A DNA stretch of 64,000 bases from Nannobrachium achirus (taxonomy: Eukaryota > Chordata > Actinopteri > Myctophiformes > Myctophidae), in NCBI GenBank assembly GCA_963921795.1, contig OY997658.1, forward strand, positions 47,440,415-47,504,414, in the 5' to 3' direction. The notes under the pieces were generated by a model. That model did not search any database, was not told the origin of the DNA, and saw nothing but the letters and a program-made list of their open reading frames with translations. Both the position numbers and the translations under genes were made by a program. Positions within the stretch are counted from its first letter, which is position 1. Each line of letters opens with the position of its first letter. Below, piece after piece: positions 12,728 through 50,328 of the stretch.

Positions 12728-15700
12728 CTAGCTGCCGCCATGCACAGAGAGATCGACAACGTCATCACTGTCGATACTGGTGTTGCCACTGGAGTTGCCA
12801 GCGGTGGCAGTGCTGTATTCATGGTGCGTGCCAGACGGGCTCAGTGTGCTCCAGCCTGTTGGAAAGGGTCTGGGAGAGCCAGCTGGCTGAGAAGGAGCAG
12901 AGGGCCAGGCACTGTAGCCCGCGGCGCCCATAGCTGCCAGGTAGTAGGCCAGGTTCTGTCCGTTGCTCTGGTTGTATGCAGACGTCATCTGCTGGGTGTA
13001 TTGCTCCTGAAGTTGGGCACGAAACACCTCTTCTTGATACTACAGGGAAACAGGATGGGTGTTAATACACAGAGAAACACATACACAACATTAAGCCATA
13101 AATTAAGCCATGTATATCGTCCTGCATTTAAGACCACGACCACAACTCAGATCGGGCCTCCCCTAATGGACGACTTTTTGTGTGTCACAGCCTGCCGTTT
13201 CTCCGTTACTGATTAACAGGAGGACACCTGACAGCTGGACAGATATTTCTTTGGTTAATGTTGCATTAAAATAGGCTTTTTATTTAGACAGGAGAGAAAA
13301 TGGAAATTCTTGTATCTTTTATAATTATGTAGTCACTCACTGCTTGGATGTTGTTGGTGTCGAGCGTGGGGTTAGGGCTGGCATTAGGGCTGGTGCTCTT
13401 GCTGACGACCTTGGAAGAAGAAATTGCCCAGTCACCGTCCTTCAGGTGTCTCCTCAGCTTCATGCGGCGATTCTGAAACCAAGTCTTCACCTGAAACACC
13501 AGATAAAAGGGTTAGGGTTAGTTGCCCAATAAGCCAAGGGGATGAGGTGATGCAGTTTGTCAGGCAAGGTACCCATTATCCTCTTTCATAAACTGAACAA
13601 AGTTGGTCAATGATTGCCTGTGTGTGTGTATAGTTAAGTACATTCAAGTACATTCAATAGTTTATAAAACTAGACTAGCATCACATTCTTTTATCTTTAC
13701 CTGTTTGTAGCTTAGCCCTGTGGCTTCTCCCAGGTCCTTCATCTCAACAGGGGTGAGATACCTCTGAGCGTGGAAACGATGCATTAGGGCCACCATCTGA
13801 ACCTCTGAAAATGATGACCGGTTTTTTGTATTCGGGACCCGGGCAGCCTTCGGGACCCGGGCAGCCTTCACTGTTGCTGCTTTGCCTCGCTTGCCTCGCT
13901 TCTTTGGGGTGGACAAAGGTGCGTGTATGGGGTCAGGGGCGTCCCCCAAGGTGGTGGCGATATTCAACTTCTCTGTAAACTGAGGGTCAGGGACCTGCTC
14001 ATGTGTGTCAGGGCTGACACTGTCTCTCCTATCATCGAGGTCCATTCTTGTCCAGGCAACTGGTTCTGCTTGGGGGAGACCTTCCTCTCTGGGGCTGCAG
14101 TGAGGGTTCCATAAATCTGCGTCAAGTGCAGGTTTAGGGTCGTGGGGGCCAACACTGTCCCTCTTGCCATCGAGGTTCATTCTCGTCCAGGCAACTGGAT
14201 CTGCTTGGGGGAGACCTTCCTCTCTGGGGCTGCAGTGAGGGTTCCATAACTCTCTGTCAAGTGTGGGTTTAGGGTTGTGGGGGCTGACACTGTCCCTCTC
14301 GCTATCGAGGTCCCTTCTTGTCCAGGCAAATGGTTCTGCTTGGGGGAGACCTTCCTCTCTGGGGCTGCAATGAGGGTTCCATAAATCTGTGTCAAGTGCG
14401 GCTTTAGGACCGTGGGGGCTGACACTGTCCCTCTCACCATCGAGGTCCCTTCTTGTCCAGGCAACTGGTTCTGCTTGGGGGAGACTTCGCTCTCTTGCGT
14501 TGCAGTCAGAGCTCCATGAATCTGTGCGAAGTATGGGTTTAGGATCGTCAGGGCTAACACTGTCCCTCCTTGTCCAGGCATGTGGATCTGCTTGGGGGAG
14601 ACCTTCCTCTCGGCTGCTGCAGCGAGAGCTCCACGAATCTGTCCTAATAAGTGTGGGTTTAGGATCGTGGGGGCCAACGCTGTCCCTCTCGCCATCGAGG
14701 TACCGTCTTGGCCAGGCATGTGGATCTACTTGAGGGAGACCTTCCTCTCTGCTGCTGCTGTGAGAGCTCCATGAATTTGTCCTTATAAGTGTGGGTTTAG
14801 GGTCGTGGGGGCTAACACTGTCCCTCCTTGTCCAGGCAACTGGATCTGCTTGGGGGAGACCTTCCTCCCGGCTGCTGCAGCGAGAGCTCCATGAATCTGT
14901 CCTTAAAAGTGTGGGTTTAGGATCGTGGGGGCTAACGCTGTCCCTCTCAACATCAAGGTACTGTCTTGGCCAGGCATGTGGATCAGCTTGTGGGAGACCT
15001 TCCTCTCTGCTGCTGTGGCGAGGGCTCCATGCATCTGGGTGGACTGTGGAGGAAAGCAGAAGAGTTCAAAATGTGTGCTCTGGGGGTCACCGCCCATGGC
15101 CATGGGTAACAATGGTTTTAAAACGTGGGTAGAATCAGGGGTCATCAATATGCCTGACAAAGACTTGGCCGTGTCATTTTTTCTTTTTTTGTATTTCCTG
15201 GTTTTACACACCATTATAATCTTTCAATCTGGATCATGATATTTAATCCATAGTTCTTTGTGTTTCTGGTAATATTATTGTCCACTCATTGTGAATGTTC
15301 GTGGCAAAAACTATGACAAAATGTTCACCACAAGCCAACATAGCGATGATGGTGTAGATAGATACATTATCCATATAGATCATATATGGGCAACTGGCGG
15401 CCCGGGGGCCACATGCGGCCCCCACCTTCACTTAATGCGGCCCACAGGTTAATACTGGAATACTGATGGACCTGGACCTGGTGAGAGCAGGAGAGGACCT
15501 GCTGAGACGTAGGAGGAGCCCGGCCAGGAGCCAACCCATAGAGCCTAGTTCTTCCACGCGCCAGAGTGGTGCTGCCCCCAATCCCGACAGAGTAGTTCCG
15601 GTGCAGCACATTAAGTGACCCTGGTCTTTCCCTAATAGGACTGATCGTGGATAGCTACTGGACGACTTGATTAACCCCGGCTGGGTCACCTGGGCGAGGG

Positions 15701-17301
15701 TGTATGATGTTGCGAGACCCGAAACACCCGTCGACCCCAGGCTACATCACTGATTATACGCCCCAGTTGCATCCTCGTGATGTTTTTTTTCTTCAGTAGC
15801 TTAAAGAGGAAGACCACCCATTTTCAATATTGAAATATTTCATTAATATACCTCAGAGGAGTTGTGTGGAAATAGAAAAAAAGTCCCCCCCCCTTCTGTG
15901 TTGCCTAGAACTGGAGGATTGATTTTGGGGTTTGTATTGTAAAGTACAATGTGTGATGTCATCAAGTTGTACTTTACAATACAAACCCCACAATCAATTA
16001 ATGTTTATTTTTTATTTTATGTCCCCAATGTATTTGTATTTAAGTTCATAAAGTTAACATGAGTATATAACTAAATATGTTGAAATGAATTTAACATTTT
16101 ACATTTCAGGATTCCAATTAAAAAATAACAAGATAATTCAGGATTCCAATTCAAAAGAGCTTGTAGATCTGCTATTTTTGCTTCTTTTGCATGAGATACT
16201 AGAATGACAAAGTAGGATAGCATTAGCAATATGCAATGTGGCCCTCTGGAGTGAAGGTGGAAATATAGTGGCCCTCGCTATCATCAAAGTTGCCCACCCC
16301 TGATATAGATATATGTAACTGGCAATTTGCACTAGCCTATGCCTTCTCACTCAGGCAATCCCTGCTTCTCAAGCGGGTTAAGGTTTTCATGCACTTCTCA
16401 ATATCTACCACCAAGTATCACCAACTTCACCATAGAAAAGGTTGAGGTGGGATGGAGCAGTGGTGTACTGTAAAGTAACATTTACTTAAGTACTAATTTT
16501 AAGGTATTTGTAGGCCTACTTTACTTGACTATTTCCAATAGGGCCTACTTTTACTTGACTATTTCCAATAGGGCCTACTTTTACTTCTACTCCACTACAT
16601 CTTGGATCCAAATATTGTACTTTTACTCCACTATATTACATTTTAAAACTCACTTGGATTATTATTACAAAACTTCCACTTCAGCCTAGTCGTCCATTTG
16701 AAAACAAACGATCGACTACAAGCTCACAATGCATAGCTTTTTCCACCACTGACTACAGCCCAGGCTACCATGCAATCAACTCACCAGGTGACGCTGCGTG
16801 TGACTCATCATCGCTTGCTGGTGTAGCAGGCCTTTTTTGATCTGCTTCAGTTGCAGCATGTGTCCGTGCATTCTCGTAGGGATCGCGGTGGTTCTGGGCC
16901 AGGTGGTATAAGTGATGATGGCCCATCTGCGGGTTGCTGTTGCCGAAGTACTGGATGACCCCCTGCGAGCCCGGATAGTGATGGGCGCTCACGACGACGT
17001 TTGCCGCCGGGGGGCTTTCGGGTGGAGACGCCTCGGCCCGGGCCTCCCGGGTCGCCGTGACCGCAGCAGCCTGGCTGTAGTAAGACGCCTGGGCCTGGGT
17101 CAATGAGCCAGTGTGGTGATGGTAGTTGGCGAGCTCCGCGGCCATAAGGGCCGGGTCGGTCCATGCTGCCGCCCCGGTGCTCTGGTGCTCTGGTACCGGC
17201 GGCTGGTGGTACATGAAGCCGTAGCCATACGCTGCGGCATAGACACCACCACCAGCTGCATGGTGGTAATTGTAGCTCAGCTGCGTCTTCCACTCTGCCA
17301 T
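12728..17301 (-). CDS. nanog: nanog homeobox protein with expanded internal repeat array
   Basis: Exons on the minus strand: 17301-16785, 15043-13701, 13490-13341 and 13039-12728. Phases match and the total is 2322 nt, giving 773 residues. I chose the ATG at 17301 because the fish-type N-terminus MAEWKTQLSYNYHH starts there; an in-frame ATG lies nine codons upstream. Residues 1-172 are rich in Tyr, His and Ala. Residues about 183-535 are eight tandem repeats. A basic stretch (KKRGKRGK and a doubled KAARVP) precedes the homeodomain at about 577-636, split by an intron after Q44. W48, F49, N51 and R53 are present in VKTWFQNRRMKLRRH. The C-terminal exon encodes a Gln/Ser/Thr-rich tail with VVDLSVHGGS at the end. 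Nanog is a DNA-binding transcription factor that, with Pou5f3 and SoxB1, drives zygotic genome activation in fish. Without the array the length would be about 420, typical of fish Nanog. Confidence 0.93.
13838..13876 (-). repeat. 18-bp coding tandem duplication in nanog
   Basis: TTCGGGACCCGGGCAGCC occurs twice head to tail, encoding a doubled K-A-A-R-V-P just before the homeodomain. It adds to the basic region but does not shift the frame. Confidence 0.85.
13985..15014 (-). repeat. coding minisatellite, 8 units of about 135 bp (45 residues)
   Basis: Read on the nanog strand, the units are 46, 40, 46, 39, 45, 45, 45 and about 39-45 residues. Each starts S-(S/P)-REEGLPQA(D/E)P, continues (V/H)AW(T/P)R, then RDSV(S/G)PHDPKP, and ends near a second Trp (SWSS or LWNPHC). 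Units 5-8 share the WNPHC end and units 1-4 the DSWSS end, so two sub-types were amplified separately. No stop codon occurs in the nanog frame, and every length difference is a multiple of three. Other frames also stay open because the unit length is a multiple of three. Confidence 0.93.
15381..16302. mobile_element. hAT-like element in nanog intron 1, 922 bp
   Basis: It is bordered by a perfect 8-bp duplication ATATAGAT (15373-15380 and 16303-16310). The right terminus GTTGCCCACCCCTG matches the left terminus CA-TATATGGGCAAC except for four bases near the tip; this is the CAGGGGTGGGCAAC class of hAT ends. No transposase is seen. It contains a foldback at 15917-16000 and a single arm of the window-wide palindrome at 16157-16179. 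Confidence 0.88.
15917..16000. repeat. foldback inside the nanog-intron hAT element
   Basis: GGGGTTTGTATTGTAAAGTA (from 15927) and its reverse complement TACTTTACAATACAAACCCC (to 15990) form a stem of over 20 bp with a short loop. Confidence 0.85.
16451..16640. repeat. dispersed repeat with internal 30-bp duplication
   Basis: The sequence GTAAAGTAACATTTACTTAAGTAC … ACTTCTACTCCACTACAT matches a second copy at 51485-51660. Inside this copy CTACTTTTACTTGACTATTT-CCAATAGGGC is tandemly duplicated (16515-16572). A single arm of the palindromic module follows at 16711-16735. Confidence 0.7.
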
Positions 17302-22491: not shown

Positions 22492-43289
<20,798 letters not shown>

Positions 43290-49643: not shown

Positions 49644-50082
49644 CAGCTTGACTGATGATGCTGTTCGTTATCTCGGACAAAAATATGTGTGGTTTATTCC
49701 CTCACCCTGCTTGGTCTCCTGCTGTTTAGTCTCGCTCTCCTCAGTACGGCAGCTCTTTGCTTATCTCTGTAATTGATTCTCGGTTGTCTCTCGACGACTT
49801 GTTTTCAGTTGTGTTGCGCTGTTGGATGTTGAAGGCTGGCCCGTTGGTTGCCTTGGCTCTCCCTGGGGATAGTTGTGATTCAGAGTTGGGTATACTGTCT
49901 CCTCTCCTCCTGTCTCCTCTGATGAAGTGCTCTTCCCGGGAGGTGTGTGTGGGTGTGTGTACAGACCTGTGCCCAGCCCCTTGGCAGATATAAGCAGCCG
50001 GAATGAATGTGTGTAATGTGCCACTTGCATGTTAGGTTTATTAGACTGTCAAGGGATTGATGGAGGCATGTTGTTTGTACCA

Positions 50083-50083
<1 letters not shown>

Positions 50084-50178
<95 letters not shown>
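50084..50178 (+). repeat. (GT)n microsatellite
   Basis: A pure GT array of about 95 bp. Confidence 0.97.
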
Positions 50179-50181
<3 letters not shown>

Positions 50182-50328
50182 CATGTGTGCACGAGAGAGA
50201 GTAAGAATGACTGATGTTTCACATTATGCGTTCTGATGCATACTATACACAGGGTGTGTTTTGATACATACTATACAGGGTGTGTTTTGCTTTTGATACA
50301 TACCATAGTTTTGATACATACCATAGAA

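Follow-up and report, generated by a model that had tools for sequence, protein, structure and literature searches.

An eight-unit repeat array in the N-terminal arm of a fish nanog gene and its likely origin from a single conserved element

The nanog gene and its surroundings

The window, by which we mean the whole 64,000-nucleotide stretch of Nannobrachium achirus DNA that was analyzed, carries a four-exon nanog gene on its minus strand (17301-12728). The spliced model forms a single open frame and predicts a protein of 773 amino acids to the stop. All of its introns are GT-AG, the four exons are open, and helix 3 of the homeodomain is intact.

16785..17301, minus strand: nanog exon 1, 517 nt coding; start MAEWKTQLSYNY, end ESHAASP; GT donor in the splice model
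13701..15043, minus strand: nanog exon 2, 1343 nt; repeat array and first part of the homeodomain; open frame
13341..13490, minus strand: nanog exon 3, 150 nt; homeodomain helix 3 (VKTWFQNRRMKLRRH)
12728..13039, minus strand: nanog exon 4, 312 nt including the stop; C-terminal arm

A first-pass annotation of this DNA had named the gene nanog, and homologues, homeodomain structures and locus all bear out that name. The homologues recovered by a full-length search were fish NANOGs (20 proteins), and a search with seven repeat units removed returned 71 proteins with fish NANOGs on top; these searches scored just the 7995 and 7997 candidates with the most words in common. The start of the homeodomain in exon 2 matches Pfam PF00046 at 23.2 bits against a cut-off of 22.9, and the closest solved structures are NANOG homeodomains (2kt0, E 3.7e-13). 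The Nanog-type homeodomain is split over exons 2 and 3, an arrangement also stated for nanog in a passage of PMC9495436. EMP70 (TM9SF) exons lie on one side of the gene, as three open frames between 1182 and 9942 whose match holds at the level of the TM9SF family and does not tell TM9SF1 apart from other members, and importin-4 exons lie on the other, in 24398-24955 and 29225-29578. Because all actinopterygian nanog paralogues are described in a section of PMC3894937 as close to TM9SF1 and IPO4, the position of the gene between TM9SF and IPO4 exons marks it as an orthologue at the standard locus. It resembles the Nanogs of Centroberyx, Polymixia, Arctogadus and medaka in this locus, in the start MA(D/E)WK that the window protein and the orthologues share, in a pre-homeodomain element and in the homeodomain.

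In a tree of 31 rows, sampled from fish Nanogs only, the window gene groups with the other fish Nanogs on the 22-row acanthomorph side of a 100/98 branch. Its start, MAEWKTQLSYNY, and its SREEGLPQ resemble those of gadiforms (Arctogadus; Merluccius has SREEGIPQ), and a clade with three gadiforms was not rejected. The same is true of several other placements, as seen from the p-AU values, uncorrected for the eight clades compared: gadiforms 0.32, Polymixia 0.26, gadiforms with Polymixia 0.23, Lampris 0.18, Centroberyx with Diretmus 0.10, Centroberyx 0.054, Synchiropus 0.049 (borderline) and Thalassophryne 0.03.

Intron 1 contains a 922-bp insert (15381-16302) with exact 8-bp duplications, ATATAGAT, at 15373 and 16303 and with ends CATATATGGGCAACT and (reverse complement) CAGGGGTGGGCAACT. 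It looks like a non-autonomous DNA transposon, which we take to be of the hAT type. The window also has many long CA/GT microsatellites (e.g., 74-442, 25558-25977, 33669-34013, 35628-36140 and 49880-50218), which give spurious THTH/CVCV frames, and it has no Rfam match.

The repeat array and its single-copy counterpart

Exon 2 stays in frame through eight tandem units (15038-13977, aa 175-528) that begin directly after intron 1 and end just before the intact homeodomain. The first-pass annotation had correctly described an open, coding array in this exon, as the in-frame spliced model and its GT-AG introns confirm; the interval it gave, 13985..15014, is well placed, and the true span is slightly wider.

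14901..15038, minus strand: unit 1, 138 nt, 46 codons (aa 175-220), PDAWSP...; occupies the ancestral single-element place beside intron 1
14781..14900, minus strand: unit 2, 120 nt, 40 codons (aa 221-260), DSWSS type
14643..14780, minus strand: unit 3, 138 nt, 46 codons (aa 261-306), NSWSS
14526..14642, minus strand: unit 4, 117 nt, 39 codons (aa 307-345), DSWSS
14391..14525, minus strand: unit 5, 135 nt, 45 codons (aa 346-390), DSWSS
14256..14390, minus strand: unit 6, 135 nt, 45 codons (aa 391-435), LWNPHC type
14121..14255, minus strand: unit 7, 135 nt, 45 codons (aa 436-480), LWNPHC type
13977..14120, minus strand: unit 8, 144 nt, 48 codons (aa 481-528), LWNPHC type; transition to the ancestral downstream flank

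The count of eight thus stands, and the uniform length of 45 residues given earlier holds for three units only, the others having 39, 40, 46 (two units) and 48. All lengths are multiples of three (117-144 nt) and two Trp recur in every unit (16/16 kept), both as the annotation had it. The two Trp of a unit are always spaced by 19, and the second is spaced by 20-27 from the first of the next unit. Tandem Repeats Finder reported overlapping arrays at 14011-15037 with periods of 135 (score 806) and 270 (score 1011). A dispersed repeat as the source of the unit was rejected: a 16-base piece of the unit has 8 matches in this window at up to 3 mismatches, all within the array, with 0.24 expected.

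The DSWSS and LWNPHC sub-types that had been distinguished are real. Unit 1 has DAWSP, units 2-5 have (D/N)SWSS, and in units 6-8, the LWNPHC type, the DSWSS core is replaced by (D/E)LWNP. In the unrooted tree of the units, 6-8 are set apart from 1-5 (0.88) and 5-8 from 1-4 (0.96), and since both splits hold, unit 5 is intermediate. Over the first 111 aligned bases the units differ by 5-24% in DNA, the longest exact repeat being one of 50 bases between units 7 and 8, and adjacent units resemble each other somewhat more than shuffled ones do (the observed value is reached in 324 of 10000 permutations), as expected for growth by local duplication and exchange. Repeat growth has occurred a second time in exon 2, where 18 bp are exactly duplicated in tandem and in frame (KAARVP twice; 13833..13868, minus strand; period 18, 100% matches) directly before the homeodomain.

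It is very improbable that the array lies outside the working protein, whether spliced out, part of a decaying gene or an assembly error. Other AG sites within exon 2 could speak for this, as could the fast evolution of the gene considered below. However, the modeled acceptor (AG at 15045-15044) has the top pyrimidine score among the AG sites scanned, 0.89 on a crude scale on which the best sites between array and homeodomain reach 0.72-0.78. Exon 2 also encodes the start of the homeodomain, so that skipping it would break that domain, and all four exons are open, their splice sites are canonical and helix 3 is intact. The 5-24% divergence of the copies is likewise unlike a single duplicated read.

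The unit is recognizable in other fish. Each contains a form of PDSWSSGSSREGSLPQADPxxW, a sequence of which fish Nanogs usually have one copy, where exon 2 begins (in Centroberyx it reads ...SEAHTSPDSWSSGSSREGSLPQADPAMWAKKDLDDETDSGSPD...). In the window gene the intron falls just before the element, and the motif SDSEAHTSPDSWSSGSSREGSLPQ, from the N-terminal region of P0001-P0060, spans the exon 1/2 junction by the window gene model; an insertion at the place of intron 1 in the Spinachia protein (P0017) has the appearance of a retained intron. Apart from the homeodomain and the extreme N-terminus, conservation among the orthologues is highest in the first half of the element, SDSEAHTSPDSWSSGSSREGSLPQA; the second half is poorly conserved. 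Exact PDSWS occurs in 51 of 60 fish Nanogs, does not vary among the 21 rows selected for one alignment, which reaches to Amia, and is found in none of the eight window units. PDSWSSGSSREGSLPQxDPxxW stands out as a conserved linear motif, and passages of the literature on Nanog assign it no function. A shorter SPDS precedes the homeodomain of a cetacean NANOG (P0061).

To count copies, we used a profile built from 54 orthologue rows with the window protein left out. By this profile the window protein has the PDSWS...PQxDPxxW element before its homeodomain in eight copies instead of one, with exactly eight domains at i-E-values of 2e-7 to 6e-12 (one-protein search). Run against 60 fish Nanogs, the profile detects a single domain in 55 and no domain in 5; not one of them has several. 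Because the five misses (three sturgeon-group sequences, a bichir-group sequence and Aldrovandia) all fall outside the training rows, each of the 54 rows was left out in turn: 53 again had one domain, and Enoplosus (P0005) had one and, in its C-terminal arm, a further match of 6 residues and 3.5 bits that we take as chance. The 23 other returned proteins (cetacean and primate NANOGs and other homeobox proteins) had no profile match. These comparisons cover P0001-P0060, in which zebrafish Nanog, absent from the hit lists, is not represented.

A second array was not found in these 60 Nanogs, nor among the annotated, near proteins reached by the full-length search (candidates of 425-1352 aa) and the search with seven units removed, where the Nanogs returned were without one. 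A search with the array only, over 6214 candidates, had no match with an E-value of 0.01 or less. In that database a lone match of 38 residues is too weak to be returned, and single-copy Nanogs were also missed, so this search informs about arrays only. Among the open-licence literature matches listed (titles and starts of abstracts), an N-terminal repeat array in fish Nanog is undescribed. The other fish Nanogs are 282-475 aa long, compared with 773 aa for the window protein, whose predicted length the array almost doubles.

The first-pass annotation had suggested comparing the unit with other fish nanog loci and had taken the array for an independent gain of a new Trp-rich unit by this lineage. 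The profile comparison supports the part of this that concerns the array, which no other Nanog examined has, and contradicts the part that concerns the unit, whose exact PDSWS reaches to Amia and which most of the Nanogs carry in single copy. Since the unit is present once in other fish Nanogs, the novelty is one of copy number; judged from the alignments, ray-finned-fish Nanog has long had the unit in single copy, and the copy number alone is new. The anatomy of the gene, and the derivation of the array from a single element at the start of exon 2 that would have grown from one copy to eight by in-frame tandem amplification, are on sequence grounds almost certainly correct, and the route was probably slippage or unequal exchange. 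Of the 47 orthologues that have a second Trp before the homeodomain, 38 have the two Trp spaced by 18 (16-20 in the remainder), compared with 19 in all eight units, suggesting that a one-residue change probably preceded the amplification. By the same comparisons the window gene is ordinary as a gene and unusual within its family for the eightfold amplification of a strongly conserved element.

Disorder, constraint and evolutionary rate

AlphaFold2 predicts the array to be disordered, with pLDDT of about 42-55 and no secondary structure, and predicts the single Arctogadus element alike. A folded repeat domain was rejected on these grounds. Constraint on the protein sequence between units appears weak. 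The comparison of dN/dS between units proposed in the annotation was run as pooled pN/pS, which is 0.67 over the whole alignment and 0.61 over the first 37 columns. Neutral evolution could readily give such a ratio: when those 37 columns were simulated neutrally along the unit tree, 244 of 2000 runs were as low. By part, the ratio is 0.82 in core columns and 0.26 in tail columns. The positions conserved among orthologues and those conserved among units show no correlation (rho 0.016, p 0.93).

The gene as a whole appears to change quickly. Its end branch in the 31-row tree is 1.0, compared with a median of 0.22, and its homeodomain (aa 577-636, exons 2-3) is identical to that of Centroberyx at 42 of 60 positions, the lowest value compared, other orthologues having 43-58/60 (n=58; P0060 outside the count). 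This is just one residue below Nothobranchius; the best match of the window homeodomain is 45/60, and the changes lie mostly before helix 3. The long branch and the diverged homeodomain indicate rapid evolution across the gene, with selection relaxed or altered, and may reflect relaxed constraint.

These results bear on the main rival to a functional array, namely that a disordered linker grew near-neutrally, through slippage or unequal exchange in a repeat-prone stretch, and left function unchanged. Such an expansion would be tolerated because the disordered arms of Nanog tolerate change in length and sequence; a section of PMC12255298 reports that the intrinsically disordered regions (IDRs) of zebrafish Nanog are partly interchangeable, even with Fus IDRs, and that foreign IDRs support early function. 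A between-unit pN/pS indistinguishable from neutral, the mismatch with orthologue conservation, the gene-wide rate, the predicted disorder of the array and the duplicated KAARVP in the same exon are all consistent with such growth. Modest evidence runs against it: all 16 Trp and the 19-residue spacing are kept, whereas only 39 of the 2000 simulations keep all Trp; 139 of 2000 stay without a stop in any unit; the tail columns have a low pN/pS; and every unit length is a multiple of three. We regard near-neutral growth as a serious possibility that falls short of probable.

Possible roles of the array

If the array does have a role, the arm in which it lies suggests what that role may be. According to the portion of PMC12255298 cited here, zebrafish Nanog clusters need the DNA-binding domain and an IDR, nuclei are left with about two clusters each once the N-terminal IDR is deleted, and this IDR is reported to harbor a dimerization domain (citing Schuff 2012), which places it in the same protein region as the array. 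A passage of PMC7402524 adds that the Nanog N-terminus binds the Groucho-binding domain (GroBD) of Tcf7 and that N-terminally deleted Nanog does not rescue the mutant. With clusters, dimerization and Tcf7 binding all assigned to the zebrafish N-terminal arm, eight copies of an element within that arm would raise the valency of its interactions, a step that we advance tentatively, at slightly less than even chances. The array would then serve as a disordered, multivalent arm built of copies of an ancestral interaction element that contains Trp, and greater valency would lead to more Nanog self-association, more clusters or more binding of a partner such as Tcf7 at target genes of the early embryo. 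The added multivalent self-association proposed in the first reading is therefore plausible by analogy, and the conserved element is a putative dimerization or Tcf7 site, the papers cited locating these activities to the N-terminal arm as a whole. Taken as a whole, the statement that this is a fish nanog orthologue whose element was amplified from one copy to eight and whose array acts as a multivalent arm seems to us evenly balanced between right and wrong.

Mammalian NANOG offers a likeness in that it, too, has recurrent Trp beyond its homeodomain. In the mammalian tryptophan repeat (WR), Trp occurs at every fifth residue. The array differs in its N-terminal position and in its Trp spacings of 19 and 20-27, and a dimerization domain of the mammalian WR type was rejected because both position and spacing differ; the mammalian WR is C-terminal to the homeodomain (excerpt of PMC9495436), and the C-terminal Trp repeat is described as missing in rohu, flounder and zebrafish Nanog (excerpt of PMC5994655). 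The fish N-terminal arm itself, with its reported dimerization domain, seems the better parallel. Excerpts from two papers concern dimerization in other Nanogs: the number of Trp in the mouse WR sets dimer strength and activity (PMC5446312), and axolotl Nanog with an added dimerization domain gains new activity in mouse ES cells (PMC3894937). The eightfold natural repeat of a conserved N-terminal element suggests a valency series for dimerization, clustering or Tcf7 binding. We consider it unlikely that the array is an eight-copy, 16-Trp scaffold under selection, an independently reached N-terminal counterpart of the mammalian C-terminal repeat in which unit number, possibly varying between individuals, tunes clustering and the onset of zygotic transcription.

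The units could instead matter for protein stability. Mammalian NANOG has a PEST and Pin1 role at the corresponding pre-homeodomain place, where the cetacean protein also has its SPDS, and the 354-residue array has 57 Ser/Thr and 20 [ST]xx[DE] sites. The Ser-rich, acidic units might serve as a series of phosphorylation or turnover (PEST-like) sites and so control how stable Nanog is at the maternal-to-zygotic transition. We consider this improbable, since units 6-8 have 3-7 Ser/Thr, compared with 12-16 in the four orthologue elements counted, indicating that the Ser-rich core was not preserved, whereas Trp was.
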